Assembly: GCA_958510825.1 (NCBI GenBank)
Contig: OY294050.1
Coordinates: forward strand, 42,235,249-42,299,248
Source of the DNA: Brachypterus glaber
Lineage: Eukaryota > Arthropoda > Insecta > Coleoptera > Kateretidae
DNA length: 64,000 nt
Reading direction: 5' to 3'
A model generated the notes under the pieces. The model saw only the letters and a list, made by a program, of their open reading frames with translations, ran no database searches and was not told the origin of the DNA. The position numbers and the translations under genes are program-made. Below are positions 1,661 through 64,000 of this stretch, one piece after another; the first letter of the stretch is position 1, and the number at the start of each line of letters is the position of its first letter.

Positions 1661-1700
1661 ATAGTGACACAAGTTGATTCGAAACTTAGTTTCAGATTAA

Positions 1701-14034: not shown

Positions 14035-14037
14035 CAA

Positions 14038-14055: not shown

Positions 14056-14289
14056 GGATTAAGCTAGTTTAACTTTTAAATTTTTGAAGTTTGTGAAAAA
14101 AATATAAAGTAAAAAAAAAAAAAAAAAAATTTTTTTTGAGATATTTTTAAGATATTTTTAAGATATTTAGACAAAACTGGATATGGTTGTTGATTTGATT
14201 TAAACAATAGGTGTGCAATGTTTAAAAAATAGTTTGGTGTAAACAGGGAGAAAAGAAACCACGGATAGGTTGAGAGTACCAAAAGGGTA

Positions 14290-14920: not shown

Positions 14921-14945
14921 TTAGTAATAAATTAAAATTTTAATC

Positions 14946-16460
14946 ATGGAAGATTTAAATAAAATGGATCTTAGATATTTGACGGTAGAGCAAATAAATT
15001 ATGAATTGCGTATTAGGTCTTTAACGGCTAGGAATGATAGAAATGCGAAAATTAAAACATTGAGTAGAGCTATAGCAAGGGAAACGGAGGACAATAAATA
15101 TGTCGATCCGGAGTTTAATTTCAATAATGAGGTAAAAGCTATTAATGATAATATTGATATTGTAAAAACTTTAGTTAAAGAACTTGAGGAGTTTGAGTAC
15201 TCAATTTCTCAACTCATTCGTATAAAGTCAAATCTAGCGCACATAAATAAGCGTTTAAATAGGTTTCCGGAAGTAAAGGATAAAGAAGCAGATAGGACAA
15301 AATTTTTACAGATTTCTAAAGCCACTTGTTTAGAATTAGAGGCGGATTTGATTGAGGCTCATACTGCGCATGAGAATAAGGTCAATGAAACTAATATGAC
15401 AAGAATTTCTTTAAATGACACAACGTTTCATGCAGCAGCTAATACTTCGGCTAGATCAGACCCGGACTTTATAAAGCCTGTACCTGTTTATAAATGGGGT
15501 GTTTCTTTTGACGGTACTGGAGACGTACTTTCGTTCATTGAAAAAGTAGATTATTTAAAAGTTTGTAGAAACGTCTCAGATGAAATTTTATTTAAAACAG
15601 CTTATGACTTATTTAAAGAGCCGGCGCTCTCTTGGTTTTTGTCAGTTAAAAGTTCAGTTAATAATTGGTCAGAGTTAATAGGATTATTAAAGAAAGAATT
15701 TTTGTCTGCTAGTGTAGATGATCATACTTGGGATGACATCAGGGCAAAGTATCAAAAACCAGATGAGTCAATTTCAGTTTTTACAGCGGCTATGGAGACA
15801 TTATTTAAGAGACTTTTGCGTTATCCTAGTGATTTTACAAAATTGAAAACAATTAGGGAAAGGATACTTCCACATTATTTTACTCCGTTATCATTAGTAG
15901 AAGTAAACTCGATTGAAGACCTCAGAAAGTATTGTAAAAAGTTAGATGAAGCTTACATTTTGAAACAAAAAAGTGTAACAAATAAAAACGCAATTTATAA
16001 GAAATCAGTACCTAGGGTAAATGTGGTAGAAACTCAAGATAGTAGTTTTGCAGAGGAAAGTAGTTGTGTAAATAAAGCAAGTAGTAGTAAAAATGTTTGT
16101 AAAGAAGGGCACTGTTGTCAGATAAATTCAAATAGTAATTTTAGTAACAATTTTAGAAATAATAATAATAGTAATGGTAACTATAATAGAAATTTCAGAA
16201 ATAATGGATATAAATCTTTTGGTAGTAATAGTAGCAGTAATTTTAATAGTAATAAAAATCAGAAAAATAGCAGTTCAGAAAATAATAGTACAGTAAATAG
16301 TAGTAATCAAGTAAAGCAAATAGTCTGTTATAATTGTAATGGAATTAATCATGTTTTTAGTAAATGTCTTGCAAAAAGGACTAAGTTTTGTTACCGTTGT
16401 GGAAAAAAAGACGTATTTTTAAAAGATTGTTCTAATTGTCAAAAAAATGTAGAGCAGTAG
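14946..16460 (+). CDS. gag: Gag of the Ty3/gypsy element
   Basis: 504 residues, the structural protein that builds the retrotransposon particle and binds its RNA. The N-terminal 40 residues (LRYLTVEQINYELRIRS) look like a small SAP-like helix region. Residues 175-345 are the capsid-like segment (FDGTGDVLSFIEKVDYLK). Residues 385-460 are an Asn/Ser-rich linker. The C-terminus holds two zinc knuckles. The first, CYNCNGINHVFSKC, is a regular CX2CX4HX4C. The second, CYRCGKKDVFLKDC, has Val where the His should be. The ATG at 14946 is the first in frame after the leader. The stop lies 25 bases into the pol frame, and a slippery heptamer is placed just before it. Confidence 0.92.
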   Translation: MEDLNKMDLRYLTVEQINYELRIRSLTARNDRNAKIKTLSRAIARETEDNKYVDPEFNFNNEVKAINDNIDIVKTLVKELEEFEYSISQLIRIKSNLAHINKRLNRFPEVKDKEADRTKFLQISKATCLELEADLIEAHTAHENKVNETNMTRISLNDTTFHAAANTSARSDPDFIKPVPVYKWGVSFDGTGDVLSFIEKVDYLKVCRNVSDEILFKTAYDLFKEPALSWFLSVKSSVNNWSELIGLLKKEFLSASVDDHTWDDIRAKYQKPDESISVFTAAMETLFKRLLRYPSDFTKLKTIRERILPHYFTPLSLVEVNSIEDLRKYCKKLDEAYILKQKSVTNKNAIYKKSVPRVNVVETQDSSFAEESSCVNKASSSKNVCKEGHCCQINSNSNFSNNFRNNNNSNGNYNRNFRNNGYKSFGSNSSSNFNSNKNQKNSSSENNSTVNSSNQVKQIVCYNCNGINHVFSKCLAKRTKFCYRCGKKDVFLKDCSNCQKNVEQ

Positions 16461-18199
16461 TGGGAAATCCCGGCCGACGCTCACTACTTCATAAGGCCAT
16501 ACCTGATAGTAAGATAACTAGTAGCTACGAAGACAATTGGTTCAATTGGACAATTTGGCTAGAAAAAGTAAAAGCATTTTATAAAAATCACTTAATTTCC
16601 TTAGTAAATTTAAATCCTTTTGAAAATTTACCAAATGATAATAGGCCTTATATAAAAGCAAGTATCGCTAATAAGCAAATAGTAGCATTAATAGATACTG
16701 GCGCTAACTGTTCAGTTATAGGAAATTTGGGAATTAGTTTGATTAAAAGTTTAAATTTAGAAATTTGTAATAGTAGTATACCATATGTAACTACGGCTGA
16801 TAAGGCACATCAAAAAGTTTTAGGTTTTGTGGAGTTACCAATTACAGTCAATGATACAGTAAATGTTTTAAAAATTTTAGTAGTACCGACTTTGCAAACA
16901 GAATTTATTTTTGGAGTAGATTTTTTGAAACAATTTTCTATATCTCTAAGTTTCGAAAATAATTCTTGGAAATTTTTGAATAAAGTAGAAATAAATAGTA
17001 TTAATTCTAGTAATGAATTTGGAATTTTAGAGTTAAGTAGTGATCAGGAACATTTAGCTAATAAAGTTAAAGATTTGTTCAAAGAACTAAAAAAAGATAA
17101 GTTAGGGTGTACTCATATAATGAAACATGATATTGATACTGGGGATAACAAACCTTTTAAAATGCGACAATACCAAATGTCTCCGTATATGCAAGAAATT
17201 TTAGTTAAAGAATTAAAAGAGATGTTAGCACAAGGGGTAGTCTCTCCTTCGAATAGCGATTATAATAGTCCGGTATTGTTAGTGAAAAAATCTGATGGAT
17301 CGCATAGGCTTTGTTTCGATGGTAGAAAATTAAATGCTCAAACAAAGAAGGATTCTTATCCATTACCAAAAATTGATAGAATTTTAAGTATGCTTGGTAA
17401 GGCGAGATATATTTCTACAATCGATCTGAAAAAAGCTTTTTGGCAGATTCCACTGACTGAAAGGTCAAAGGAAAAATGCGCTTTCACTGTACCTGGCTAT
17501 GGTCTATTTCACTTTAATCGTATGTGTTTTGGGTTGGCTAACGCGGCGCAAAGGCAACAACGATTGATGGATAAATTGTTTGGTGCTGCCTTTGAACCAT
17601 ATATTTTTGTATATTTAGATGACATAATAATAGTATCATCTAGTTGTGAAGAACATATACGTCTGCTAAAAGAGGTTTATCGTATTTTAAAAGAAGCTAA
17701 TCTTACAATAAATTTTGATAAGTGTAAATTTTTTAGAAAATCATTAAAGTATTTGGGTTTTGTTTTGGATAGAGAAGGGTTACGCACAGATATAGAAAAA
17801 GTACAGGATATGTTAAATTATAAACGTCCTAGTACAACTACAGAGATTAAACGGTTTATAGGGTTATGTTCATGGTACAGACGGTTTGTAAAAAATTTTG
17901 CAACGTTAGTAGCACCACTTAATGCTTTGCTGAAAGGTTTAGGAAAGAAACAACCAATTAAATGGAATAATGAAGCTGAAGTCGCGTTTGTTAAAATAAA
18001 AGAAGCTCTTGTTTCAGCTCCGGTTTTAACCAGTGCTAGGTACGACCTTGTTTTCACCATACAATGTGACGCTAGTAATGTAGGTTTGGGAGCAGTGTTA
18101 ACACAGGTTCAGGAGGGAAAGGAAAAGGTTATTGCATACGCCTCAAGAACTCTCTCAAGATCAGAAAGAAATTTTAGCACCGGTGAAAAAGAAGTTTAG
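16436..18199 (+). CDS. pol: Pol, first part: protease, reverse transcriptase, start of RNase H
   Basis: The frame has no ATG of its own at the junction and should be expressed as a -1 fusion to Gag. The aspartic protease shows ALIDTGANCSVIG (about residues 84-96) and later FIFGVDFL. RT follows: KSDGSHRLCFDGRKLN, STIDLKKAFWQIPL (motif A Asp), FGLANAAQ (motif B), and YLDD (motif C) near residue 393. The RNase H begins FTIQCDASNVGLGAVLTQ at about residue 541, with its first catalytic Asp. The frame then hits a stop at 18197-18199, where the protein should continue; the rest lies in the next -1 frame. Confidence 0.92.
   Translation: MSKKCRAVVGNPGRRSLLHKAIPDSKITSSYEDNWFNWTIWLEKVKAFYKNHLISLVNLNPFENLPNDNRPYIKASIANKQIVALIDTGANCSVIGNLGISLIKSLNLEICNSSIPYVTTADKAHQKVLGFVELPITVNDTVNVLKILVVPTLQTEFIFGVDFLKQFSISLSFENNSWKFLNKVEINSINSSNEFGILELSSDQEHLANKVKDLFKELKKDKLGCTHIMKHDIDTGDNKPFKMRQYQMSPYMQEILVKELKEMLAQGVVSPSNSDYNSPVLLVKKSDGSHRLCFDGRKLNAQTKKDSYPLPKIDRILSMLGKARYISTIDLKKAFWQIPLTERSKEKCAFTVPGYGLFHFNRMCFGLANAAQRQQRLMDKLFGAAFEPYIFVYLDDIIIVSSSCEEHIRLLKEVYRILKEANLTINFDKCKFFRKSLKYLGFVLDREGLRTDIEKVQDMLNYKRPSTTTEIKRFIGLCSWYRRFVKNFATLVAPLNALLKGLGKKQPIKWNNEAEVAFVKIKEALVSAPVLTSARYDLVFTIQCDASNVGLGAVLTQVQEGKEKVIAYASRTLSRSERNFSTGEKEV
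16442..16448 (+). promoter_or_regulatory. probable -1 frameshift site between gag and pol
   Basis: In the gag frame the codons read CAA AAA AAT, giving the heptamer A AAA AAT. Gag is in one frame and pol in the -1 frame, overlapping from 16436 to 16460. This is the standard arrangement for making Gag-Pol by ribosomal -1 slippage. A downstream pseudoknot was not worked out. Confidence 0.65.
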
Positions 18200-19746
18200 C
18201 TCTTTTATTCGCGATTGATCGTTTCAGGGGATATATTGAAGGAGTTAGGTTTAATGTTATAACAGACCATTCTAGTTTAAAGTATTTAGCAAATTTTAAA
18301 GACCCGACAGGAAGAATTGCTAGATGGGCGGTTAAACTCCAACAGTATGACATGAATATTACATATCGTAAGGGTAGTTTACAAGTAGTTCCAGATGCAT
18401 TAAGTAGGGCTTTTGAAGAAGTTGAACCAGAAAAACCAGTATTTCCGTCAGTTAATTTAATATCATTTGATTCGGAACAGTATGGTAAAGATGAGTACTA
18501 TGTTTCATTAAGAGAAAAGATATTGAAGAGTCCAAATCAATATAAAGAGTATAGAATTGTAGAAGATAAAATATATAAATTTGATCGTTCTAATTTAGGT
18601 ATTAAAACGAATATTAAAGAGTGGAAGTTGTTGGTTCCGAGACTCTGTAGGGTGCTTGTTATGAAAGAATGTCATGATGATCCTTTAGCAGCCCACATGG
18701 GTTTTTATAAAACTTTTAATAGGGTATCACAAGAATATTTTTGGCCACGTATGAGATCAGATATTTTGAAATATGTTAAGTGTTGTAAAATTTGCGCTGA
18801 ACAAAAGGTTCCGAATTATGCACGTCATGGGTTGATGGGTAAAGAAAAGAATATTAGTTTCCCTTGGCAGTGTATTTCAACAGATTTTATAGGTCCATTA
18901 CCTAGATCGAATGGAGGGTTTTGTTATTTATTAGTAGTATCTGATTGGTTCACAAAATATACACTTTTACAACCTTTGAAAACAGCTACTGCTCAAGGTG
19001 TAATAAAATTTATAGAAAATCAGGTGTTCTTAATATATGGCGTACCGCAGTACATTATTGTCGATAATGGTACTCAGTTTGCTGGGAAAGCTTTCAAAAA
19101 GCTTGCGGACGACTATCAAGTTCAAAAAATCTGGTACAATGCCAAATTTCATTCACAAGTAAATCCTACAGAAAGACAGAATCGAACGGTAGAAACGGCG
19201 ATAAGGTCTTATATAAAAGAAAATCACCGGGAATGGGATAAAAATATAGGTAAAATAGGTCTTGCGCTTCGTACCGCAGTTAATGAGGTCCACGGACATT
19301 CGCCGGCGTTTCTCAATTTTGGAAGAATCGTACCTTTAACAGGGGCTTACTATGGCAAAGTTTCGTCCACTCAAGACGTTGAGTTGGAACCGGATTCTCG
19401 GGAAATGTATTTTAAGGATTTAGTTGGGTTAAAAGACATTTTTGCGGATGTAAAAACTAAATTGCATGAAGCATACGAGCGAAATAGAAGAGCCTATAAC
19501 CTTAGAAAGCGTGACGTAACGTTCACGATAGGTGAGAAGGTATGGAAAAGAAATAAAGTTCTTTCCAGCGCAGTAAATTATTTTGCGTCAAAATTAGCGC
19601 CTAAGTACGTGTTATGTAAGATAATAGGTAAAAAGTCAAATTTGGTTTATGTGTTACAGGATAAAAACGGTCAATCCATTGGAGACTGGCACGTTAAAGA
19701 TCTTAAGAAATATTTGGGTTCGAATAGTGATGTATCCGTCGGATAA
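18196..19746 (+). CDS. pol: Pol, second part: rest of RNase H and integrase, displaced by a one-base frameshift
   Basis: This frame continues the RNase H without missing residues, so one T appears to be lost in a T run at 18194-18197. Integrase follows, with an N-terminal HHCC zinc finger (CHDDPLAAHMGF and CCKIC) and the catalytic triad in TDFIGPL, VDNGTQF and NPTERQ. The last two acidic residues are 36 apart, as in D,D-35-E. The C-terminus (19560-19730) is a GPY/F-like module with no chromodomain. The first Met is at 18352, but this is not a separate gene. With LTRs this similar, the break is either a very recent mutation or a homopolymer error. Confidence 0.9.
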   Translation, partial: LALLFAIDRFRGYIEGVRFNVITDHSSLKYLANFKDPTGRIARWAVKLQQYDMNITYRKGSLQVVPDALSRAFEEVEPEKPVFPSVNLISFDSEQYGKDEYYVSLREKILKSPNQYKEYRIVEDKIYKFDRSNLGIKTNIKEWKLLVPRLCRVLVMKECHDDPLAAHMGFYKTFNRVSQEYFWPRMRSDILKYVKCCKICAEQKVPNYARHGLMGKEKNISFPWQCISTDFIGPLPRSNGGFCYLLVVSDWFTKYTLLQPLKTATAQGVIKFIENQVFLIYGVPQYIIVDNGTQFAGKAFKKLADDYQVQKIWYNAKFHSQVNPTERQNRTVETAIRSYIKENHREWDKNIGKIGLALRTAVNEVHGHSPAFLNFGRIVPLTGAYYGKVSSTQDVELEPDSREMYFKDLVGLKDIFADVKTKLHEAYERNRRAYNLRKRDVTFTIGEKVWKRNKVLSSAVNYFASKLAPKYVLCKIIGKKSNLVYVLQDKNGQSIGDWHVKDLKKYLGSNSDVSVG

Positions 19747-20579
19747 CTGCATGCATGAGTTTTTAAATTTCAGAAAGAAAAATAAAACCGTTAATTGTAA
19801 ATATTAGCTAAGAGTGAGTAAAAGTCAAGTGTAAATAGTTAAATTTTATTTTAAATAAAATAAAGTCAAATATTGTAAAAAAAAAAAATATTTTCTTTGA
19901 TGCTCGAGGGATCAGGTCTAGAACTGATTGCTGCGACATTTTAGTAGATGGGTGTAGAGTGAGTGTTCTTCAGTTTTGATTGAGATCTTGATTAGAATAC
20001 CTGAAAAATTAAAAGGTTAATAACGGTCAAAACTATGGACTAAAAAGTTTTTGGACTTAGTGTCAATAATAAGGATTATTGATATTAAAAAGTCATTGTT
20101 GTTGAATTTTAGTTAATAAGAATTTTCCCGATTATGTAACTTCCCGATTGTGTAACTATAACTCGATTTTGTCAATTCATGGATTTGTCCCTAGTAAATA
20201 GGCGTGTGGTACGCGTAGATATCAGGCTTAACTAAAAATTCAATAAAAATGCATTCAATAACAAGTTCAATAAACATTGATTCAATATTGATTCATAAAA
20301 ATTGGATAGAAATGCAATGAAAAATAAATAAATATTTTTATTTTTGTATATATTCGGAAAGGGGAATAAAGCTACAATAAATAATAAGTAAATTTAATAG
20401 TTTTTGGTTACAGAATCAGAATATGCTAGTAGCATAAGTTAGGAGTAATTTTTTTTGGTTACGGGGTTATTCTTTGTGATATTGTAATGTTCTATTTAGA
20501 GTTAACTATTGGAGTTTATACTCTGGGTTAAAAAATATTTTTGGGAATAAATATTTTTTATTTATTCGGAGGAGGGCTG
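19747..20579 (+). other. 3' noncoding region and polypurine tract
   Basis: No open frame follows integrase, so there is no envelope gene. The region is AT-rich. It ends with the purine-rich ggaggaggg at 20568-20576, three bases before the 3' LTR, which is the expected plus-strand primer. Confidence 0.75.
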
Positions 20580-22735
20580 TGTAGCAGTTATGACTGCCAC
20601 TGTTTTTAAAGATTACCTGATCTGTGTCACGTAATCATACGATGTTACCATTTTTTCAGAAGTTAGTATTTCTTTCTATTTGCACATATAAGATTGAGTA
20701 CAGACTTATTGTATGGTCTTGTGGAAGTCTTGCGATGGTCCTTGATTCCATTTGCTGGGTCATTTTTCTTTTATTACAGAATTTGTCTTATTTTTGGTGT
20801 TTACTTTTGATAGCCTAAAATATAATAACAAACGTCTAGTAATCTACTACATTCAGTACTTGAGTTAGCTACTGATGTTTTTCAGCTAGTCTTACCTTTT
20901 TAATCACAGCTAAAGCTTCTGGAAGTCGGATAAAATCATTATCAAAGATTGTTTACCTAATTTTGAGGTTAGTTTTACTTCTACCCGCATTCAGGTATAC
21001 AGTATGCATTGCATGGTCAGCTGATGACTTCAAGTTGGTTTATTTTCGTCGTATCATTTCTTAAACCATATGAAACGATTGTTAGATGTATGGCTAGGCA
21101 TTTTAAACTTATTTAGAGTATTCTTTTTCTTTATTTTCAAGTATTATCGGGATTATGAATAGATGTTTTTTGTGTTGCCTACCCTCAAAATCGATTTGTT
21201 GTTCGTAGTTCCAAGTTTCGCCACGGGGTGAGTTTTGTACCTTGCCGGAGTTGAAGGGAGTGGCGTTCTTTTTCAAAACGACAAGCAATGGCGTTCAGGT
21301 CGTAAAATCAGAATCTGATTTTTGTGAAACCATCCGTGGTTTATGTTTGTGTAAAAATGTTGCAATAAGTTTGTAATGAAGTGTAGTATAATCCTACGTA
21401 ATTAGTTCAAGCAGTTTTAATGGAAATTCCACAATATTCATCTTTCAAAAGGCGTACAGATGAAGGCTTCAGGCTGCAGAGTATTCTAGTATTCAGCACT
21501 TACTGCTCCAATTAATTCAGTTTTGGACTGGATTGTTGGTGAAGCTTTTCCATTTCTGTTCTAACGTTCTTCGAATGTTTTGACGATACCTCTATCCCAA
21601 ATTTTATGAATATTGTTGGTGAAGCTTTTATATTTTACAACGTTACCGTTATCTCAAATTTTACGAGTATCGATGGCGAAGCTTTCCATTTCAACTTTAA
21701 CTTCAATTTTCATTGAGGTGTTCTTCAATTTTCCACATTAGTTTTCAAGAGTTTTCAAGATTTTTCAAGATGTTCAGTAAATTGCAGTACCGTTTTTAAG
21801 CCAAGAGGTTTACAAACGTTTCAATGGATCCTCAAGCGTTTGAGTTTCAAACGTGTTCAAATTTGTAAGGAGTTCTCAAGGCAAGGACAAGGAAATGTTC
21901 TGCACAGTGACGTACATCATCAGGGAGTGGGACAACGTATTTGGTCGTTCCAGGGACAACTTTAATTAACAGGTTTTTATAGTTTTAGTGTAAATAATGA
22001 AAATGCGGTTTACTATATTTATTTTTGGTAAAATATCCAAGTTCTCAAATTTTAATATTTATTAAGGTGCTCTATTTTATTATGAATATTCTAGGTTGGT
22101 TTGTAAACAAAGTTGCAACTTTGGGCAGTACGCCTAGATTACTATTTTTCACTTATTAACACATAACTTATATTACTGTTTTTATTTAGGTTATTCACCA
22201 TAATAATTTTGGTATACATATTTTAACATTTTTGCAATAGGGTAGTTCACCATATTTTTTTTTATATTTCGCAATGGGGTCTTTTCACCATACTTTTGGT
22301 AATTTATAATTTTATTTTAATTAATATGATTAATTAAAGTTGTCTACTTGTCATTTTAAATAAACATTGTAACAGCACATATTTGAGTTTTTGTTTAAAT
22401 TATAATCAACACAAGATATACAAATCTATTCAAATCATAGTTATTTTTCAGGTTTATACATGCTGTAAAAGATAATTAATATTCTAGTACATTATTTTTT
22501 ATGTGTTTGAATCTTAACACATAAACTGCCAAGCACATGTATGTTTACAAGATTCTGGCGCCCAAGGTGTTAAACTAAGCTTATTATCATAATTTTTAAT
22601 CCATGAACCCCTGTGCCCGTACTGATGCCAGTTAGCCGATCGCAACCGTACATTTTCTTTTCTATAATAAGTAACCAGGGCAGCGCCTGATAATTTTTTA
22701 GTTTTTACTTATTCTAGACAGGAAAACGCGGTACA
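20580..22735 (+). repeat. 3' LTR
   Basis: The same 2,156-bp sequence as 11879-14034 at an offset of 8,701. I saw no substitution or indel in the blocks I compared along its length. It ends GGTACA, followed by the TSD gtat. Confidence 0.93.
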
Positions 22736-25834: not shown

Positions 25835-26034
25835 NNNNNNNNNNNNNNNNNNNNNNNNNNNNNNNNNNNNNNNNNNNNNNNNNNNNNNNNNNNNNNNNNN
25901 NNNNNNNNNNNNNNNNNNNNNNNNNNNNNNNNNNNNNNNNNNNNNNNNNNNNNNNNNNNNNNNNNNNNNNNNNNNNNNNNNNNNNNNNNNNNNNNNNNNN
26001 NNNNNNNNNNNNNNNNNNNNNNNNNNNNNNNNNN
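25835..26034. other. assembly gap (200 N)
   Basis: Exactly 200 unknown bases, a round number that suggests a placeholder. Open frames that cross it are artefacts. The LINE fragment on its right side probably continues into it. Confidence 0.97.
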
Positions 26035-28938: not shown

Positions 28939-29226
28939 GTTTGTTTGTTTGTTTGTTTGTTTTACTGTTTAACGTCGTTTTTCGCTGCTATGGCCTAATT
29001 GACGGGACCGCCATCTTTACGTGCCCTCCGAAGCACGGTCCTCAACAGAACTCGCATCCACCCTGAAATGTGTTTACAGTTTCACCTGCAACCCACATTA
29101 CAGTTAGTCATCGTAGTTCCATCTACCGACTATTTACACCACTATACATCCATGCTCTATGTGGGGCTCGAACCCACAACCCCAGGATCCGTAATCAAAC
29201 GCGCTACCATTGCGCTACTGGGGTCG
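28939..29226 (-). mobile_element. tRNA-Arg-derived SINE with 17-bp TSD
   Basis: On the minus strand the first 70 bases resemble tRNA-Arg(ACG): A box TAGCGCAATGGTAGCG, anticodon-arm segment GATTACGGATC, B box GGTTCGAGCCCC. About 190 bp of body follows, ending in an AAAC-type tail (28939-28965 read in reverse). The direct repeat gcactgtataatagttg at 28922-28938 and 29227-29243 is a perfect 17-bp TSD. The tRNA part is not a gene, as it lacks a closed acceptor stem and is fused to the body. Confidence 0.88.
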
Positions 29227-29879: not shown

Positions 29880-30494
29880 GAAAAATATTTATTTATTTTA
29901 TTACTTTATTTATTTTATTAATTATTTTGTTCATTTTATTAATTTTATCCATTTTACGTATTTTATCCATTTTATTCATTTTGTTCACTTTATTCACTTT
30001 ATTGACTTTATTTTATTCTTTTTATTCGTTTTGTTTGTTTTGTTGATTTTGTTAATTTTGTTAATTTTGTTAATTTTGTTAATTTTGTTAATTTTGTTAA
30101 TTTTGTTAATTTTGTTCGTTTTGTTCCTTTTGTTCGTTTTATTTATTTTATTTATTTTATTTATTTTATTTATTTTATTTATTTTATTTATTTTATTTAT
30201 TTTATTTATTTTATTTATTTTATTTATTTTATTTATTTTATTTATTTTATTTATTTTATTTATTTTATTTATTTTATTTATTTTATTTATTTTATTTATT
30301 TTATTTATTTTATTTATTTTATTTATTTTATTTATTTTATTTATTTTATTTATTTTATTTATTTTATTTATTTTATTTATTTTATTTATTTTATTTGTTT
30401 TATTTATTTTATTATTTATTTCATTTATTTTTTTATTTTGTATTTATTTTATTATTTATTTAATTTATTTTTTTATTTTGTATTTATTTGCTTG
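29880..30494 (+). repeat. 9-bp microsatellite array
   Basis: About 600 bp of (ATTTATTTT)n, preceded by seven or so units of (TTAATTTTG)n at 30045-30110 and mixed variants at both ends. The unit is a multiple of three, so it reads as a long Ile-Leu-Phe open frame (30031-30495), which is not a protein gene. Confidence 0.95.
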
Positions 30495-48625: not shown

Positions 48626-50564
48626 CCCTGGTAGAAAAGTACACAAATCTAACTTAACATAACGTTAGATTAATGACATTTTTATGTTTAGTCTCAAACG
48701 TTGTCACAAAACGTTATAAAATATATAAATCTAACCTTAAAAACTAACGTTTGACAAAAACGTTATAAAATACATAAATCTAACTTTAGTTTGCCAACTA
48801 AATTCTAACCTTTTTCTAACCTTATTCTAACTTTAAATATTTTTTACATTTCCATTATTAATACGTAAGCTATAGTAGAAAATACTCATTTCAGACAGCT
48901 ATGTGCCTGGGTTTGATAATTGTTTATTACTTCTATAATAAGTTTAAAAAAATATCCCGGAAAAGTCAAAATTATAGTTAGTCTGGCAACGCTGTATTAG
49001 AATTAAAAAAATATTTTAAGATTCTGAATGTATAAATAAATATTAACTAACTAAATATAAAGTTATTCTGAGAGGTAAACGTATTTATCAAAGTATAAAA
49101 GCATATTACACGAAAAATATTTAGGGGCACCTAAAAAAATGGCTAGTTTATAAATAAATGTAAAGAATTTATGTTTAAAAATATTATGATTCCTAAAATA
49201 TATTTAGATTTATATGAATAAATTTGTCTCCAGCTGCCATTATATGATGCAGATAGAAATTTCCTAGTTGGCCACGCCCCCCCCCCCCCCCGAAAGTTAG
49301 AAATTAAACGTACTTATAGATTAGATTAGATGTTTATTGATCACTTTGCTATATAAAATAGATATGACAAGTCAGGTTTAAATAAATAAAAAATCGATCT
49401 ATGTATAAGTATATAAATGCGGTGTTTGAGAATAAGGGATTACATTTCCTAAGTGAGTGTTAAAAAAAAAACAAAAAACGGTAATGACCGAAAAAAAAAA
49501 TTATATATAAAAAGATGTTGAAAAAAATAAAAAAAAAATACGGTTGCCAGTAAAAAAAATTAATAGAGAGAATGTAATGACCATTATGCCTCTAACAAGG
49601 CAAATTAAAATAAAATCATAATATAAAACAAAAGATTAAAAAGTTAAAACATATAAATAAAATCACAAATATAACATTAATTAAGAAATTCGCTAATAGT
49701 ATAAAAACAATTTTCCACCAAAAACTTTTTAACTGTTTTTTTAAAAATGTTATTACTATGAACTTCACGAATATTTAACGGTAGCTTATTAAAAAAGGTT
49801 ATGGCCATATAATTAGGTGAGTGTTCAAAGTAACTAGTTTTGTGCTTTGGTACTTTTAAATTGTCCTTATTTCTTATATTATAGCAATGAAAATTTGAGT
49901 TTCTAATAAAATCACTATAATTTAGTTTAACAAACATAACACATTTAAAAATATAAAGGCTAGCTACGGTTAAAATTTGGTTTGACTTAAAAGCATCTTT
50001 GCAACTTTCTCTGTAGTCTAAATTAAATATTAATCTAATCAGTCTTTTTTGACTTACAAAAACTCTACTAATCTGTTCCACAACCCCAGCAAATTATATT
50101 ATAGTTTAGATATGAAAAAGCCAAAGAGTAATAAATGTCAAGCAAACCCTTTTTAGTAAGATCACTTTTCATTTTTAAAACTGCAAAATACGCACTATTG
50201 AACTTTTTACAGACGTGATCTATATGTGTATCCCAACTTAAATTTTGATCAAAATATGTACCCAGAAATTTAGTTTCCTTGCTAATATTAAGGTTAGGAA
50301 TGGAAAAACCAACAGGAAGGCCTTTTCTATTAAAAAAGTTTACGACCATAGTTTTGGATTTATTTAAGATAAGCTTATTTCTTTGACACCAAGTATCAAA
50401 ATCGTATTTCTAACTTAAAAATCTAACGTTATATTAACGTTTGTAACTAACGTTAGATTCTAAGGTTAAAAAGCGGGACATTTGTACATATTTTATTATA
50501 CGTACTTTCATACAGTTTTCTAACATTATAAAAACGTTATTCTAACGTTAAATTTCTACCAGGG
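48626..50564. mobile_element. TIR element rich in CTAACGTTAG motifs, copy 2
   Basis: Ends CCCTGGTAGAAA and TTTCTACCAGGG. It matches copy 1 (11311-11878 plus 22736-23182) in order and shows what copy 1 looked like before the LTR insertion (gaatgtataaataaat at 49026). It is itself split at about 49320-50403 by a LINE. Without the LINE it would be about 850 bp. Confidence 0.8.
49320..50403 (-). pseudogene. 5'-truncated CR1/Jockey-type LINE fragment
   Basis: Two minus-strand frames (50068-50349, then 49677-50081) cover the end of a LINE reverse transcriptase: ETKFLGTYFDQNLSWDTHID, IYYSLAFSYLNYNIICWG, SQKRLIRLIFNLDYRESC and NKLPLNIREV. A one-base frame change near 50080 separates them. The 3' noncoding part (49320-49676) ends in a ctaat-type tandem tail. 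The related LINE at 63370-64000 has the same protein end. The insertion sits between cttata and cgtatttct of the host TIR element. Confidence 0.83.
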
Positions 50565-51830: not shown

Positions 51831-52478
51831 ACATAAAAGTTGGAAAATGAATCATTATTAACTGCAACTTCCCAAAAAGTTAGAAACACCTCATTTCCCT
51901 CCCTTGGTCGGGAAGGCTCTTGTAGCTGACTTTACGTATGTCACCTGTCAAAAACTTGAATCTATCAACCTAAAGAACAATGTTAAAAATAGGCAGTTTT
52001 TGGCCGTGCAAACGTAGGAAACATATCCATTCCTAAAGATTTCGACATGCTGAACACGATATCGGCCTTTAAAATTACAGAAACGGTGTGAAAGAGTTTT
52101 TTTTTTCGTAAAAAGGTAAAATTAGGTAGTTTCTGAACTAACCAAGCCAGGTGTAAAAAAAATATATATTTTTTATAGATTTGGGCACGCTAAACACGAT
52201 TCCGTTCTCAAAAGTGACAGAAACGGTGTGGAAGACTTTTGTTCTTTGCAAAAGCTTAAAATAGGTCAATTAGGACCCGTGGATAAAGTATAGTGTTCTA
52301 CTCGCTATTAATAATTCTGGTGATTACGCCACTCGCCTATTGTGTCGCAAAATTCACCCTCATTGATTAATAGCAATTATTATACTAAACTAAATTAAAT
52401 TGTTTGATATTTACAAATTTAAAAAATCTATATAAAACATTTTACTATTCCTTAAAACGACTTTTGTTTGATTAACGC

Positions 52479-52557
52479 AGTCGTCCCTCCGAAGTGACTG
52501 ATCGATTTCGTGCTTTTTAGCACTCTTCAGAGCCACATATCGGTAGTAGGGACAACT
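52479..52557 (-). ncRNA. hammerhead ribozyme, unit 1
   Basis: Read on the minus strand: outer stem I (AGTTGTCCC with GGGACGACT, one G-U), internal loop, inner stem I (GTGGCT with AGTCAC), core CTGAAGA, helix II GTGCT-AAAA-AGCAC, GAAA, palindromic stem III ATCGAT, and C as cleavage nucleotide (complement of 52500, cut before 52499). All core positions fit the consensus CUGANGA..GAAA..UH. The stem III has no loop, so cleavage is expected in a dimer or multimer, as in tandem transcripts. Confidence 0.85.
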
Positions 52558-52915
52558 ACGAAAATCAAATCCTTTCCATATATCTCTATATGGAGTTTAA
52601 AAGTCGCTGTAAGGAAAAGCAAAAACAGCTAGCGACATCTACTGCTAAAAGCAGAGACTGGATAAACCTATCGACAGTCCAAAAAAAGGAAGCAGTTATT
52701 GATTTCAAGAACCTAATGCACGCTGTCGATAGGGGGCAGATTAATCAATGCCACGGTGGACATTGCCGCCAATTGAATCCTAAACGCTAGGAGGTCACCT
52801 TTTACAGTGGTATCTGAATTAATAAACTAAATTAAATTGTTTGATATTTACAAATTTAAAAAATCTATATAAAACATTTTACTATTCCTTAAAACGACTT
52901 TTGTTTGATTAACGC

Positions 52916-52994
52916 AGTCGTCCCTCCGAAGTGACTGATCGATTTCGTGCTTTTTAGCACTCTTCAGAGCCACATATCGGTAGTAGGGACAACT
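52916..52994 (-). ncRNA. hammerhead ribozyme, unit 2
   Basis: Identical core and stems to unit 1 (79 bases), 437 bp further on. It lies in a B-type unit. Confidence 0.85.
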
Positions 52995-53354
52995 ACGAAA
53001 ATCAAATCCTTTCCATATATCTCTATATAGAGTTTAAAAAAATCGTTGTAAGGAAAAGCAAAAACAGCTAGCGACATCTACTGCTAAAAGCAGAGACTGG
53101 ATAAACCTATCGACAGTCCAAAAAAAGGAAGCAGTTATTGGTTTCAAGAATCTATTGCACGCTGTCGATAGGGGGCAGATTAATCAATGCCACGGTGGAC
53201 ATTGCCGCCAATTGAATCCTAAACGCTAGGAGGTCACCTTTTACAGTGGTATCTGAATTAATAAACTAAATTAAATTGTTTGATATTTACAAATTTAAAA
53301 AATCTATATAAAACATTTTACTATTCCTTAAAACGACTTTTGTTTGATTAACGC

Positions 53355-53433
53355 AGTCGTCCCTCCGAAGTGACTGATCGATTTCGTGCTTTTTAGCACT
53401 CTTCAGAGCCACATATCGGTAGTAGGGACAACT
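53355..53433 (-). ncRNA. hammerhead ribozyme, unit 3
   Basis: Identical to the unit 1 motif, 439 bp after unit 2. B-type unit. Confidence 0.85.
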
Positions 53434-53793
53434 ACGAAAATCAAATCCTTTCCATATATCTCTATATAGAGTTTAAAAAAATCGTTGTAAGGAAAAGCAA
53501 AAACAGCTAGCGACATCTACTGCTAAAAGCAGAGACTGGATAAACCTATCGACAGTCCAAAAAAAGGAAGCAGTTATTGGTTTCAAGAATCTATTGCACG
53601 CTGTCGATAGGGGGCAGATTAATCAATGCCACGGTGGACATTGCCGCCAATTGAATCCTAAACGCTAGGAGGTCACCTTTTACAGTGGTATCTGAATTAA
53701 TAAACTAAATTAAATTGTTTGATATTTACAAATTTAAAAAATCTATATAAAACATTTTACTATTCCTTAAAACGACTTTTGTTTGATTAACGC

Positions 53794-53872
53794 AGTCGTC
53801 CCTCCGAAGTGACTGATCGATTTCGTGCTTTTTAGCACTCTTCAGAGCCACATATCGGTAGTAGGGACAACT
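53794..53872 (-). ncRNA. hammerhead ribozyme, unit 4
   Basis: Identical motif in the second A-type unit. Confidence 0.85.
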
Positions 53873-54232
53873 ACGAAAATCAAATCCTTTCCATATATCT
53901 CTATATAGAGTTTAAAAAAATCGTTGTAAGGAAAAGCAAAAACAGCTAGCGACATCTACTGCTAAAAGCAGAGACTGGATAAACCTATCGACAGTCCAAA
54001 AAAAGGAAGCAGTTATTGATTTCAAGAACCTAATGCACGCTGTCGATAGGGGGCAGATTAATCAATGCCACGGTGGACATTGCCGCCAATTGAATCCTAA
54101 ACGCTAGGAGGTCACCTTTTACAGTGGTATCTGAATTAATAAACTAAATTAAATTGTTTGATATTTACAAATTTAAAAAATCTATATAAAACATTTTACT
54201 ATTCCTTAAAACGACTTTTGTTTGATTAACGC

Positions 54233-54311
54233 AGTCGTCCCTCCGAAGTGACTGATCGATTTCGTGCTTTTTAGCACTCTTCAGAGCCACATATCGGTAG
54301 TAGGGACAACT
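54233..54311 (-). ncRNA. hammerhead ribozyme, unit 5
   Basis: Identical motif in a B-type unit. Confidence 0.85.
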
Positions 54312-54671
54312 ACGAAAATCAAATCCTTTCCATATATCTCTATATAGAGTTTAAAAAAATCGTTGTAAGGAAAAGCAAAAACAGCTAGCGACATCTACTG
54401 CTAAAAGCAGAGACTGGATAAACCTATCGACAGTCCAAAAAAAGGAAGCAGTTATTGGTTTCAAGAATCTATTGCACGCTGTCGATAGGGGGCAGATTAA
54501 TCAATGCCACGGTGGACATTGCCGCCAATTGAATCCTAAACGCTAGGAGGTCACCTTTTACAGTGGTATCTGAATTAATAAACTAAATTAAATTGTTTGA
54601 TATTTACAAATTTAAAAAATCTATATAAAACATTTTACTATTCCTTAAAACGACTTTTGTTTGATTAACGC

Positions 54672-54750
54672 AGTCGTCCCTCCGAAGTGACTGATCGATT
54701 TCGTGCTTTTTAGCACTCTTCAGAGCCACATATCGGTAGTAGGGACAACT
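54672..54750 (-). ncRNA. hammerhead ribozyme, unit 6
   Basis: Identical motif in a B-type unit, the last complete one. Confidence 0.85.
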
Positions 54751-55110
54751 ACGAAAATCAAATCCTTTCCATATATCTCTATATAGAGTTTAAAAAAATC
54801 GTTGTAAGGAAAAGCAAAAACAGCTAGCGACATCTACTGCTAAAAGCAGAGACTGGATAAACCTATCGACAGTCCAAAAAAAGGAAGCAGTTATTGGTTT
54901 CAAGAATCTATTGCACGCTGTCGATAGGGGGCAGATTAATCAATGCCACGGTGGACATTGCCGCCAATTGAATCCTAAACGCTAGGAGGTCACCTTTTAC
55001 AGTGGTATCTGAATTAATAAACTAAATTAAATTGTTTGATATTTACAAATTTAAAAAATCTATATAAAACATTTTACTATTCCTTAAAACGACTTTTGTT
55101 TGATTAACGC

Positions 55111-55189
55111 AGTCGTCCCTCCGAAGTGACTGATCGATTTCGTGCTTTTTAGCACTCTTCAGAGCCACATATCGGTAGTAGGGACAACT
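55111..55189 (-). ncRNA. hammerhead ribozyme, partial unit 7
   Basis: Complete motif, although the unit itself breaks off at 55293, before the A/B diagnostic sites. Confidence 0.85.
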
Positions 55190-55296
55190 ACGAAAATCAA
55201 ATCCTTTCCATATATCTCTATATAGAGTTTAAAAAAATCGTTGTAAGGAAAAGCAAAAACAGCTAGCGACATCTACTGCTAAAAGCAGAGACTAGT

Positions 55297-55375
55297 AGTT
55301 GTCCCTACTACCGATATGTGGCTCTGAAGAGTGCTAAAAAGCACGAAATCGATCAGTCACTTCGGAGGGACGACT
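55297..55375 (+). ncRNA. hammerhead ribozyme in the inverted terminal copy
   Basis: The same 79 bases on the opposite strand. The inversion point is at 55293-55295 with one extra base. A transcript through 55111-55375 could fold the two motifs against each other as a long hairpin, which would compete with ribozyme folding. Confidence 0.85.
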
Positions 55376-55757
55376 GCGTTAATCAAACAAAAGTCGTTTT
55401 AAGGAATAGTAAAATGTTTTATATAAATTATTATACTATTTTTAAATAATATACTATTTTTACTGGCATCGTTAGCTCATAACTGACCTATTTTAATTTT
55501 TTTATTAAGAAAAAAACAGTCTTCCACACCATTTCTGTTACTTTTCAGAACGGAATCGTGTTCAGCGTGCCCAAATCTATAAAAACATTGTTTTTTTTAC
55601 ACCTGCATCGTTACCTCAGAAACGACCTAATTTCAGCTTTTTACGAAAAAAAAAAACAGTCTTCAACACCGTTTCTGTAATTTTAAAGGCCGAAAACATT
55701 ACATATAAATTTAAGTTATATTGTTTGGCATTTATGAAAAATAAACAGTGACTACTT

Positions 55758-60102: not shown

Positions 60103-61252
60103 TCATTGCCAGAGCTTTTGAAGCTTCTAGTACCCAAAGGAACCGGATCCGGAGTCTAACAATTTGAAAATAGCTTAATTTGAATGCACTTTAAAACATA
60201 TATTAAATACAGTCGGGAGAAAATAATGAAATAAAAATTTTAGTATTTAACACTAGTCAACAATCAAGATTTAAACAAAAATATAAGGATTTTTATTTAT
60301 TATTTTATTTTATTGTCGTTTTGAGACCTATTAATAAGTAGTTTATATTATAATAGACAGATTATAAAACAAAAAATTTGGAGGTGCTTCAAAGTTAATT
60401 AAAACATTCCTTAGAATTCCATCGGTCTATGTTTTATACCATCTTTCCACCATAATTTCCGCAAAAGTAAGCAAAATTTTTGAAAAATATTTTAAAACAT
60501 GCCGAATTTTAAATCGTTATTTTCAAATATAAACAACTTCTTCCTCGTTGTATTAATATAAAAATATTTAAATTCTTCAGTAAGAAAAATAATTTTCTTT
60601 TGGGACAAAAATTTTGACATTGTCATAAAATAAATTGATTATTATTATTATTAAGATCATTTTAAAACATGCTTCTGAAGAAAATGAGCATTTTTATTCC
60701 ATAATTTTCTTCCGCGTCTATTTTATATGTCATAAAGCACATGCAAAGTTATTTTTAAAACGCCAGGTCATTGATCCAGTTCTTTTGGGTTCTAGAAGTC
60801 CTTTATTTTCGTATACAATGTTTTTTTGTCCTAGGCTGCAACTATCTTTGAGATATATTGAAAAATCCGTTTTTTGTAAAAAATACGTCAAAAAAGTTCA
60901 AATCGAGTTCAATGTTGCAAAATTGGTCTTTTACTCAATAAACTCAAAATCAAAACTCCCTGAATTGTTTCCGGGTAAAACTGGTGTATAACATACAGAC
61001 ATAACAAATACTCAAAAATATGCACACAAAAAATTATAATTGATTAGTTTTTCCAAGGTATTACTGACCGTCACACACTGACAAAAATTATGTTTGAATA
61101 TTATATCATCTAATAATGGTTTCATGCAGGAGTAAGCAAAAATAATAGAGCCCGTCACAGAAATTACCATAATAAAAATAATTAACTGCTTCTTAGTGTA
61201 CAATGCAACACGGCGTTTTTAAGGCACTCTTTTAACTAAAATTAAAAGTTTT
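60103..61252. other. AT-rich stretch, no supported gene
   Basis: Contains a short ATT microsatellite near 60640. Open frames at 60635-60991 (plus) and 61012-61203 (minus) have no ATG-supported structure or splice sites that I could defend. The minus frame contains one hydrophobic segment only. Confidence 0.5.
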
Positions 61253-61345
61253 AGATTTTAAGCTTTCACGGCCATTAAGATATAAAGAACTTTCACTTTC
61301 GGGTTTAGACCGTGTTAATGGATTTTCACTTTCCGACATTTCTAA

Positions 61346-62431
61346 TCTACATATTTTCTGATACAGGGAGAGTTCTATGAACAAGTGTCAGGCGCCGCAA
61401 TGGGATCCCCATTATCACCCCCTGCGGCCAATGCTTTCATGGAATACTTCGAGAAAAAAGCTATTGAGTCATTTCCATTAAAACCTAAAATTTGGCGCAG
61501 ATACGTAGACGATGTCTATGCTATTTGGCCCCATGGCATGGAAAGCCTTCAAGGTTTTCTAAATCACCTCAATTCCCAACATAAATCTATACGGTTTACG
61601 ATGGAAATTGAGAACAACGGATCACTTCCCTTTTTGGACGTTTTGGTTTACAAAACGGAAAATGGCTCAATAGGACACTCGGTATACAGGAAGAAAACCC
61701 ACACTGACAGATACCTAAACGCATTTTCACATCACCATCCCTCTCAAAAACGCTCGGTAGTTAATTCACTTGTTCATAGGGCTTTCATGATTTCAGACAA
61801 GAATTCCCTAGACACAGAACTCCTTAAACTAACCAAAGCCTTGACCATGAACGGTTATACCAAAAAAGACATTAATAAGACCATATACAAATACAGAAAT
61901 CCCAGACCCAAACAACAGGACAATAGTGACAATGACAGACAGACACAAGTTATACTTCCCTATGTAAGCGGTATCACGGATAAAATAGGTAAACTTTTGA
62001 AGAAGTCAAATATTAAGCCTATATTTCGGTCCAACCAAAAATTAGGTCAATGTTTGACTTCAACAAAAGACAAAATACCCCTGAGTTCAGAAGGCGTATA
62101 TAAAATACCCTGCTCCTGTGGTACGGTTTACATAGGTGAAACTAAGAGAAAAATTTCTACAAGACTTCAAGAGCATGAGCGCAATATAAGAAAGAAACAA
62201 ATTTCCTTATCGGCAGTAGCTGAACATGTACATGAAACAGGTCATAAAATCAATTTGTCTGAAACAAAACAAATATTAACAGAAAACAGAAAAATGCCAA
62301 GGAAGATACGGGAATCGATAGAAATCATCAAGCATCCTAACAATATCAATCGGGACACTGGTTACCACTTACCTGCAATATGGAAGTCTCTGATAGGAAA
62401 AACCTCGTCACGGGTGAATAACCACAACTAG
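61346..62431 (+). CDS. PLE protein: RT palm and thumb plus GIY-YIG endonuclease, 5'-truncated
   Basis: The frame is open from 61346 without an ATG at its start. RT motif B is GAAMGSPLSPPAANAFMEYF (from about 61391) and motif C is RRYVDDVYAIW (about 61498-61530), followed by SLPFLDVLVYK. The C-terminal 130 residues are the GIY-YIG nuclease with PCSCGTVYIGETK and the EH-containing helix. Motifs 1-A of the RT are absent, so it is incomplete. A possible 3' splice site (ctgatacag, 61366) precedes the first recognisable residues; PLEs can contain introns, so this may be an old exon edge. The frame itself has no stop or shift. Confidence 0.85.
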   Translation, partial: STYFLIQGEFYEQVSGAAMGSPLSPPAANAFMEYFEKKAIESFPLKPKIWRRYVDDVYAIWPHGMESLQGFLNHLNSQHKSIRFTMEIENNGSLPFLDVLVYKTENGSIGHSVYRKKTHTDRYLNAFSHHHPSQKRSVVNSLVHRAFMISDKNSLDTELLKLTKALTMNGYTKKDINKTIYKYRNPRPKQQDNSDNDRQTQVILPYVSGITDKIGKLLKKSNIKPIFRSNQKLGQCLTSTKDKIPLSSEGVYKIPCSCGTVYIGETKRKISTRLQEHERNIRKKQISLSAVAEHVHETGHKINLSETKQILTENRKMPRKIRESIEIIKHPNNINRDTGYHLPAIWKSLIGKTSSRVNNHN

Positions 62432-62477
62432 TCATAAATAGTGACACAAGTTGATACGAAACTTATTTTCAGATTAA

Positions 62478-62518
62478 TCCCTGAAGATGTCTCTAGTAGT
62501 AAGAGACGAAACGTCGGA
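62478..62518 (+). ncRNA. candidate PLE hammerhead ribozyme, copy at 62.5 kb
   Basis: Same bases as 1701-1741: CTGAAGA at 62481-62487, helix II GTCTC/GAGAC, GAAA at 62508-62511, ACGT, and C at 62515. Same extra T before helix II. Confidence 0.55.
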
Positions 62519-62658
62519 AAGTGAAAATCCATTAACACGGTCTAAACCCGAAAGTGAAAGTTCTTTATAAAATTAAAAGTGTATTTATAGTTCGTTACTT
62601 ATTACGTGTTTATTAAAAGCTTTGCACATGCGTAATAATATAACTATGGTCTATTATT

Positions 62659-62980
62659 CCATCAATCTATTTTCCAATCATCGCACAGAGTGATATTGGT
62701 AGACTGACAGATTCGGGCTGTATCAATCTATTTTCCAATCATCGCACAGAGTGATATTGGTAGACTGACAGTTTCGGGCTGTATCAATCTATTTTCCAAT
62801 CATCGCACAGAGTGATATTGGTAGACTGACAGTTTCGGGCTGTATCAATCTATTTTCCAATCATCGCACAGAGTGATATTGGTAGACTGACAGTTTCGGG
62901 CTGACATCAATCTATTTTTCAGCCCGAAACTGTCAGTCTACAATATCACTCTGTGCGATGATTCGAAAATAGATTGATGG
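62659..62980. repeat. foldback MITE whose left arm is a 61-bp tandem repeat
   Basis: Units start at 62661, 62722, 62783 and 62844 (atcaatctattttccaatca..tgacagtttcgggctgt), 61 bp each, plus a truncated fifth at 62906. One inverted copy follows (62920-62980), ending gattgatgg. The first unit has gacagattcggg where the others have gacagtttcggg. The block ccaatcatcgcacagagtga links it to the neighbouring element at 63033. Confidence 0.85.
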
Positions 62981-63032
62981 AATAATATTTTTATAATTTT
63001 GTTTAAAATTAAAAATTTCTGTCCTTGATAAC

Positions 63033-63402: not shown

Positions 63403-64000
63403 TTATTCACCAATAAAGATACATACAGTATATATGGTAGTGTCAAAATACGAAATATAAAAAATTACAAAATATGTAATAAAAAGTACACAATATATAC
63501 TTAATAAATTTGAAATAAAAATATAATTATAAATAAAATAAAAATAAAAATGTTAACACGCATTCAAATAAACACACAATCTTAAAATTAACAATAAAAT
63601 AAGTTCAGTTACTAGGGGGTGATAAATATTCCTGAATTTTATAAACAACTTTATCAATCAGATAGTTTTTTACAGAATTTTTAAATGAGTTGTAACTATT
63701 TATATTTCTGATGTTTTTTGGCAGTTTGTTATAAAAAGTTATACAAGAGTATCTCGGAGATTTCTCGTAAAAAGATTTTCTATGCCGCGGAGTCTGAAGA
63801 TAATGATTTTGAGTGGCACCCGAATTTACATTTGAATTGTTTACAAAAAGATTAAAATTTTTTTTCACAAATAAAATACACTTAAAAATAAATAATGAAT
63901 GAATAGTTAACAAACGCTTTTCTTTAAACATCTGTTTGCAGGAATCTCTAAAAGGCATGTTAAAAATCATTCTAATAACCCTTTTTTGAGCCACAAATAC
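63370..64000 (-). pseudogene. CR1/Jockey-type LINE, 3' end, runs off the window
   Basis: The minus-strand frame 63605-63994 encodes AQKRVIRMIFNMPFRDSCKQ, LFIFKCILFVKKNF and FYNKLPKNIRN, the end of a LINE reverse transcriptase like that at 49320-50403 but clearly divergent. The 3' noncoding part is about 200 bp and ends in a (TAA)n-type microsatellite (63371-63405), which serves as the tail in such LINEs. The rest lies beyond position 64000, so completeness is unknown. Confidence 0.82.

Follow-up and report, generated by a model that had tools for sequence, protein, structure and literature searches.

Metazoan non-LTR retrozymes, like the array described here, consist of short tandem repeats that are rich in AT, code for nothing and carry type I hammerheads, have target-site duplications (TSDs) of more than 4 bp, and occur in genomes that also hold Penelope-like elements (PLEs), which have already been proposed as their mobiliser (PMC7229834). 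A 2020 review by their discoverers presents them as having no conserved motif that points to an autonomous mobiliser (PMC7761336). Hammerhead tandem repeats of a size like that of the array are known as pDo500 in cave crickets and as W-elements in Schistosoma, and a TSD was noted for one W-element, as in the array; the available text on either describes no head-to-head insert ends (PMC2837043, PMC8490949). Plant LTR retrozymes share with the array a hammerhead and a non-autonomous nature (PMC4918200), and are set apart from it by LTRs, a type III hammerhead and a 4-bp TSD (PMC7229834, PMC7761336). Penelope/Poseidon-type PLEs resemble it in their direct and inverted partial copies, TSDs of ~10 bp, optional tail of 30–40 nt, hammerhead and two adjacent start sites (PMC3846280, PMC11167929), whereas the array codes for nothing. 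More specifically, PLEs were described with direct pLTRs, an inverted partial pLTR, TSDs of 8–10 bp and, in one inverted pLTR, a tail of 31 bp (PMC3846280). A PLE protein in purified form was shown to cut both strands and to extend each of them, beginning from two neighbouring internal sites that mark the limits of the tail (PMC11167929).

The array lies in a 64,000-nucleotide stretch of Brachypterus glaber DNA (the window) and was detected as a tandem repeat at 52386–55293 with a period of 439, 6.6 copies and 99% matches. The insert as a whole comprises six full head-to-tail copies, one partial copy and one inverted piece (Table 1), with units of 437–439 bp, and is enclosed by a direct repeat, AATTATTATACTA. 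The first-pass annotation had proposed 439-bp head-to-tail units between perfect 13-bp direct repeats; the repeats are indeed identical and the period holds, but the leftmost unit is 437 bp and the final 131 nt are inverted, letter-for-letter identical to part of a unit. No 13 bases were shared by any of ~4000 pairs of random 30-nt stretches 3 kb apart (pairs touching the N gap left out). The homology of the inverted arm ends exactly at the 13-bp repeat, and since this arm is an inverted partial unit, the insert is bounded on both sides by sequence from about the same point of the repeat RNA. There is one ATG ORF of at least 40 aa (66 aa), in one unit, and no RT or GIY-YIG ORF in 52388–55425, so the array is not itself a PLE. 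Searches for an empty target site elsewhere in the window and for sequence relatives in viral_contigs and genome_contigs returned none. Another kind of tandem array with an inverted end is found at 62661–62978.

Rfam family RF02275 matched all eight hammerhead copies at a permissive setting (28.4 bits, E 3e-4), a score below the Rfam gathering score of 52, so that no array hammerhead is listed at the default setting. This covariance-model check, suggested in the first-pass annotation, agrees with the 79-base minus-strand hammerhead proposed for each unit, except that the eighth copy is on the plus strand. The 79-mer folds with a z of −4.05. A relaxed scan of the window gave ten matches, eight in the array and two in the two PLE copies, whereas 100 shuffles averaged 0.17 matches and never exceeded 2. 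An earlier, laxer scan gave the eight array matches plus two in a Gypsy-type element's LTRs but none in the PLE, and a pattern scan gave 14 (eight in the array, two in the PLE and four others; 2.48 expected). The monomer RNA is predicted to be highly self-paired, as in metazoan retrozymes (z −8.57; 0/100 shuffles as stable), and the non-coding repeat (here 436–439 bp, GC 0.361 over the whole insert) falls in the low-GC, 150–450 bp range of that group. With its type I hammerheads of complete core, matched below the gathering score in 8/8 copies, the array is by sequence a metazoan retrozyme, for which self-cleavage and circular RNA are predicted.

Table 1 Positions of the retrozyme array, its hammerheads and the two PLE copies in the window.
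Feature	Position	Strand	Remark
Left TSD, 13 bp	52375–52387	.	Exact match to 55426–55438; TSD recovered here by script
Long arm with units head to tail, 2906 bp	52388–55293	− (RNA sense on minus)	Reverse-transcription start at site 2 (52386–52388)
Tail of 41–43 nt between start sites 1 and 2	52386–52428	−	Left end only
Type I hammerhead, unit 1	52482–52560	−	Predicted cut between 52500 and 52499
Predicted hammerhead, unit 2	52915–52985	−	Rfam match
Predicted hammerhead, unit 3	53354–53424	−	Rfam match
Predicted hammerhead, unit 4	53793–53863	−	Rfam match
Predicted hammerhead, unit 5	54232–54302	−	Rfam match
Predicted hammerhead, unit 6	54671–54741	−	Rfam match
Predicted hammerhead, partial unit 7	55110–55180	−	Rfam match
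Extra A at arm junction	55294		
Short inverted arm, 131 bp	55295–55425	+	Starts at site 1 (55425)
Eighth hammerhead, in inverted arm	55306–55376	+	Rfam match
Right TSD, 13 bp	55426–55438	.	Exact match to left copy
PLE copy A	61251–62569	+	Likely kind of helper
PLE copy A, inverted 3′-end arm	61251–61342		Starts at site 2
PLE copy A, 5′-truncated body	ORF 61346–62431		RT part and GIY-YIG region; ends at site 1 without tail
PLE copy A, TSD of 10–13 bp	Around 61237–61249 and 62568–62580		
PLE copy A, minimal hammerhead core	62481–62511		
PLE copy B, head-to-head halves	236–1822	+	236–1174 minus, 1182–1822 plus
PLE copy B, right end with tail	1793–1822		Left end short of start sites
PLE copy B, hammerhead core	1704–1734		

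The 40 best-scoring insert loci of 935 candidates in the same genome, including the window array, were surveyed for their ends. All 40 contain the exact hammerhead core (118 times in total), and 32 are head-to-head. By script, the outer ends of 29 of these 32 pair a site 1 with a site 2, a number that rises to 31 once L061 and L079 are read by eye; the exception is L067, whose second start coincides with neither. The two sites are 41–43 nt apart, with site 2 further downstream in the RNA. In the eight loci that have no inverted arm, six inserts begin at site 2 and two at site 1. TSDs of 10–15 bp, beyond the >4 bp typical of metazoan retrozymes, flank 27/40 loci, compared with a mean of 0.15 (largest 2.0) when flanks were swapped among loci; 20/40 are exactly 12 or 13 bp, and the AT content of the 27 is 89%.

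Arm lengths range from 48 to 2911 nt (72 arms). Because 68/72 arms are longer than 114 nt, the maximum obtainable from a hammerhead-cut linear monomer, the template RNA was likely an uncut multimer or circle. A cut template was also sought at the inner arm ends, 3/72 of which fall within a few bases of the hammerhead cut (2.0 expected), and this candidate was rejected. The family is very uniform, with unit differences in 1.0% of compared cells within inserts versus 1.1% between inserts. At nine shared substitution sites, 23 insert-by-site cells were heterogeneous and 263 homogeneous, where random draw would give 19.8 of the former. Linked sites of the window array itself account for two of these 23, and the other 21 reflect either an alteration confined to a single unit or arm or a two-against-one split. 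This uniformity keeps unit identity from separating a circular from a multimeric template.

Across the genome, the TSDs, the fixed start sites and the 43/72 arms exceeding one unit support the first-pass reading, in which a multimer entered as one piece through target priming. Its further claim, that the array was not built in place, is less secure for this locus. A smaller retrozyme insert could have grown here by unequal crossing-over or by duplication of a three-unit block, a possibility to which we give well under even weight. At three linked positions the units run X Y Y X Y Y, which fits such a duplication; the other 39 loci, in which the usual unit is 436 bp (49/55 spacings), hold almost no X or Y variants, and the window array is the longest of the 40 inserts. 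However, other inserts reach 2770, 2525, 2376 and 2180 bp, which together with the many arms longer than one unit indicates that multimers were inserted as such at many places, and if two of six units are X, 3/15 arrangements place them three units apart. Units 2, 3, 5 and 6 are letter-for-letter equal, which fits in-place growth and one-piece insertion alike; the three private substitutions of unit 1 keep the predicted pairing, not all of the X/Y sites do, and these changes are too few to serve as evidence. The exceptional length and the near absence of the variants elsewhere are compatible with an unsampled donor or with in-place duplication after insertion, so this array may have expanded later.

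The same genome has 110 PLE candidates, and its PLE follows the same rule. In all four of its readable two-ended inserts with both ends at start sites (window copy A, L090/L091, L092/L093 and L096), the tail, here a start-site spacing of 30 nt, is at exactly one end. End repeats are 10–13 bp in copy A, 15 bp in L090/L091, about 9 bp, T-rich and weak in L092/L093, and 12 bp, read by eye, in L096; copy B has no clear TSD. The PLE ORFs match Pfam families at scores under the curated cut-offs, the PLE hammerhead matched no Rfam hammerhead family up to E 10, and no PLE was confirmed in viral_contigs. Hammerhead-like cores are common to the PLE copies and the array. Of 439 unit windows, the 25 nt that precede retrozyme site 1 are the closest match to the 25 nt that precede PLE site 1, and the reverse comparison over 1233 PLE windows likewise ranks this pair first; this likeness was reached in 9/5000 shuffles, in an anchored test chosen after the alignment had been seen. 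The 3′ regions compared unanchored were not significantly similar (674/1000 shuffles scored as well), and site 2 showed no sequence similarity between the two.

Direct observation covers how the insert is laid out, the TSDs, the return of two start sites from locus to locus and a PLE that obeys the same rule; the argument rests chiefly on features missing from the head-to-tail picture of the first-pass annotation, namely the inverted arm, the pair of start sites and the connection to the PLE. As 31/32 two-ended inserts share the two-point start rule of the genome's Penelope, we consider it likely that the array is a metazoan-type retrozyme inserted by a PLE enzyme, with each target strand priming its own cDNA. 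Uncut retrozyme RNA, as a linear multimer or a circle, would be bound by the PLE RT/endonuclease, and the enzyme would cut both strands of an AT-rich target about 12–13 nt apart. An antisense cDNA would then be primed from each target strand, with site 1 as the start for one strand and site 2 for the other, and end-to-end joining of these cDNAs (131 and 2906 nt in this insert) would give a head-to-head insert with a tail at exactly one end. Counting against this model, biochemical assays of another PLE showed no start-site difference between strands (PMC11167929); the L067 exception, the eight loci with no inverted arm, the lack of similarity at site 2 and in the unanchored comparison, the weak family matches of the PLE and the restriction of the survey to the best-scoring loci weigh on the same side.

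The inverted arm could instead stem from self-priming or fold-back of a single cDNA or antisense RNA, with no second target strand involved. Self-priming was suggested for PLEs in 2013 from junction palindromes (PMC3846280), and the arms overlap widely in sequence, but extension of both target strands has been demonstrated for a PLE (PMC11167929). Self-priming would also leave unexplained why a second outer end adjoins the TSD at a fixed site 41–43 nt away in nearly every insert, and we regard it as improbable.

Twin priming by LINEs yields TSDs and inverted 5′ parts, and the window holds ORF pieces that we take to be LINE-like (49677–50093, with no match in a Pfam search, and 63605–64000), so the inverted arm might be a usual LINE 5′ inversion. 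This seems more improbable still, since LINE inverted arms would begin at varied internal points whereas the second start is at a fixed site in 31/32 inserts, and the tail rule is common to the retrozyme and the genome's PLE. Two further readings, a TIR-type DNA transposon that holds tandem repeats inside and a Helitron-type carrier of satellite DNA, have a negligible chance of being correct: terminal inverted arms do accompany tandem repeats, and the array of another kind at 62661–62978 is comparable, but the ends are offset by 41–43 nt where a TIR transposon would have symmetrical terminal inverted repeats, arm lengths vary from locus to locus, TSDs are 12–13 bp and the exact hammerhead core is in every locus.

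The PLE as mobiliser was proposed earlier (PMC7229834). The words "inverted", "inversion" and "head-to-head" are absent from the available text of that account, and what is added here is that the start sites can be read from the ends of the inserts and are in this way linked to a PLE. In the literature searched, from which subscription papers are mostly absent, no statement of a paired-priming link between the two was found, nor was "retrozyme" found together with "twin priming"; a strict one-tail-per-insert rule is not stated for PLEs in the accessible parts of PMC3846280 and PMC11167929.

This genome's retrozymes are probably SINE-like parasites of its own Penelope, inserted by paired priming on two neighbouring fixed sites, neither of which is used twice, and under this rule every two-ended insert would be a head-to-head pair with exactly one tail. 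The insert ends would supply a sign of the retrozyme's mobiliser, and the question becomes testable with one enzyme and one RNA. If the one-tail-per-insert rule is true, the optional tail of PLEs, noted long ago, and their inverted repeats would be two products of one paired-priming event.

The retrozyme insert, 3038 bp long and bordered on both sides by perfect 13-bp direct repeats, was composed of 2906 bp of head-to-tail units joined, through one extra base, to a 131-bp inverted piece of the retrozyme unit. The first-pass annotation had described a head-to-tail array of 439-bp units; the multiple units and the perfect repeats were confirmed, but the 131-bp end is inverted. The left end lies at unit position 52386-52388 (hereafter, site 2), where the bases TA are common to the insert and the direct repeat, and the right end, at 55425, corresponds to unit position 52429 in antisense (hereafter, site 1). 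These sites are 41–43 nt apart on the retrozyme RNA, at 71 nt (site 1) and 112–114 nt (site 2) downstream of the hammerhead cut. With the left end at site 2 and the right end antisense at site 1, both ends are therefore starts of antisense cDNA on one RNA, a two-start structure that the plain tandem-array reading overlooked and that a plain array cannot show.

The complete hammerhead core noted from the sequence was borne out, as a type I hammerhead was detected in all eight unit copies, including the inverted one (RF02275, E 3e-4, permissive setting; none of the array hammerheads was reported at the gathering threshold). On the minus strand the core comprises CUGAAGA, stem II GUGC/GCAC, GAAA, and a palindromic stem III AUCGAU. 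Cleavage is predicted following C17, at 52500/52499, and the monomer RNA showed strong self-pairing (z -8.57).

Other features were profiled in the same window. The two LTR stretches of a Gypsy-type element were 100% identical across 2035 bp, and therefore its insertion is likely recent. The 61-bp tandem array is a further small tandem-plus-inverted element, of a kind different from the retrozyme.

Coordinates of the retrozyme insert and of other features in the window
Feature	Position	Details
PLE copy B	236-1822	Penelope-like element
Gypsy-type LTR element	12000-22735 (outer limits approximate)	
LTR stretches	12000-14034, 20701-22735	
gag	14931-16460	
protease/RT/RNase H	16436-18199	
integrase	18187-19746	
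Run of 200 N	25835-26034	either an assembly gap or a withheld stretch
Rfam tRNA match	29153-29224, minus strand	32.4 bits; absent from ARAGORN output
AT-only 9-bp repeat	29888-30489	~67 copies
Older inverted repeat	52062-52275 / 55477-55693	encloses the retrozyme; 85% alike, ~140-bp tandem periods
Retrozyme insert	52388-55425	
PLE copy A	61251-62569	Penelope-like element
61-bp tandem array, then inverted copy	62652-62987	4.2 copies; inverted ends ATTATTCCATCAATC

The genome (648 Mb, 842 contigs) was searched for the retrozyme, giving 129 matches (40 scored among 935 candidates) that represent 40 insert loci including the one in the window; the sequences of the other 39 were taken, 20 of them with extended flanks. 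Direct and inverted arms were arranged head-to-head at 32 of the 40 loci, and in 29 of these 32 a script assigned the two outer ends to different sites, one to site 1 and the other to site 2. The misfits were L061 and L067, each with one unclassified end, and L079, scored as site 2 twice. Read from the sequence, L061 has a site 1 start adjoining a 10-bp TSD, and the two ends of L079 fall at sites 1 and 2, each bearing a copy of the 11-bp repeat CAAAAATTAAT. L067 is thus the sole exception to the two-site rule, its second arm beginning in hammerhead stem II next to a 7-bp repeat (L067:1120-1160). Site 2 was the start of the longer arm in 22 of the 32 head-to-head loci, and the eight one-arm loci started at site 2 (n = 6) or site 1 (n = 2). 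TSDs of 10–15 bp were identified by script at 27 of the 40 loci, most commonly of 12 bp (11 loci) and 13 bp (9 loci). Exchanging right flanks between loci as a control gave a mean of 0.15 and a maximum of 2.0. These TSDs and the fixed starts favor the target-primed insertion proposed initially, although that proposal had missed the inverted arm and the two start sites.

If the template were a linear monomer cut by the hammerhead, arms would be limited to 71 nt from site 1 and 114 nt from site 2. A total of 68 of the 72 arms exceeded 114 nt, 43 were longer than one unit and 19 longer than two. The inner arm ends were scattered across the unit and did not cluster at the hammerhead cut (3 of 72 vs 2.0 expected). 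Given these arm lengths and inner ends, the template was likely RNA without hammerhead cleavage, either circular or a linear multimer. The retrozyme family is too uniform for a comparison of units to separate these two forms. The linked variants of the window units follow the order X Y Y X Y Y, which the product of a single monomer circle would not show.

Both PLE copies in the window (98% alike) code for the RT end and a GIY-YIG region, with weak Pfam matches under the cut-off (RVT_1, 4e-4; GIY-YIG, 9e-4). Relatives of the protein carry RT and GIY-YIG domains, and the nearest named ones, among 120 listed of 866 matches, are from insects (e.g., Megachile, Halictus, Macrosteles; 54–55% identity), which points to an insect as the likely host. 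Both copies also contain a hammerhead-like core (CUGAAGA-stem II-GAAA), which was not recognized by Rfam. Copy A has the layout of the retrozyme and a TSD of 10–13 bp; its inverted arm starts at site 2 of the PLE, the end of the tail (the stretch between the two sites), and its body ends 30 nt earlier, at PLE site 1. Copy B consists of head-to-head halves; on the left it terminates immediately 5' of the hammerhead core, not at a start site.

The PLE 3' end had 42 matches in the genome (40 scored among 110 candidates). Ends were read at 17 places beyond the window (20 short stretches) in list order, visible head-to-head pairs first. All four two-ended inserts with both ends at start sites had the tail at one end only, i.e., copy A, L090/L091 (15 shared bases), L092/L093 (9 shared bases, T-rich and weak), and L096 (12 bp, CAGGCTCAAACA, read by eye). 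In the latter three, the tailed end had at least 28 of the 30 tail bases. L094/L095 has one end short of the start sites, stopping in the region where copy B stops, and L097, with one end beyond the stretch read, is outside this count. The tail was present in 5 of the 12 ends lacking a listed partner and absent from 7. Thus, the PLE uses both start sites, and its readable two-ended inserts always have one of each.

The 25 nt before PLE site 1 found their best match among 439 unit windows in the 25 nt before retrozyme site 1, and the reverse comparison picked PLE site 1 as the best of 1233 PLE windows. This likeness was equalled in 9 of 5000 shuffles, and ranked 2 of 439 with 20 nt and 1 of 439 with 30 nt. 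The anchored test was chosen post hoc, after an unanchored PLE–retrozyme alignment, itself not significant, had pointed to site 1. Site 2 showed no likeness between the two elements. We regard the site 1 likeness only as a supporting point for the PLE link.

We conclude that the window array was probably inserted by paired target-primed reverse transcription by a PLE enzyme from uncut retrozyme RNA; its unit number may later have changed in place. The enzyme would prime cDNA on both target strands with this RNA as template. Our guess is that both strands are primed within one complex on one RNA, and that the two ends use different sites because one is already occupied. In published work, PLEs have direct pLTRs, an inverted partial pLTR, and short TSDs, with an optional ~31-bp tail on one inverted pLTR (PMC3846280, similarly PMC8969392). 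A purified PLE protein is described as cutting and extending both strands and as starting at two adjacent internal sites that delimit the tail; in vitro, the start sites do not differ between strands (PMC11167929). Metazoan retrozymes have been described and PLEs suggested as their movers (PMC7229834), and a review states that their mobilizing element is not readable from any motif (PMC7761336). As far as the literature was searched, PLE-type ends on retrozymes and the near-strict rule of different sites at the two ends are new.
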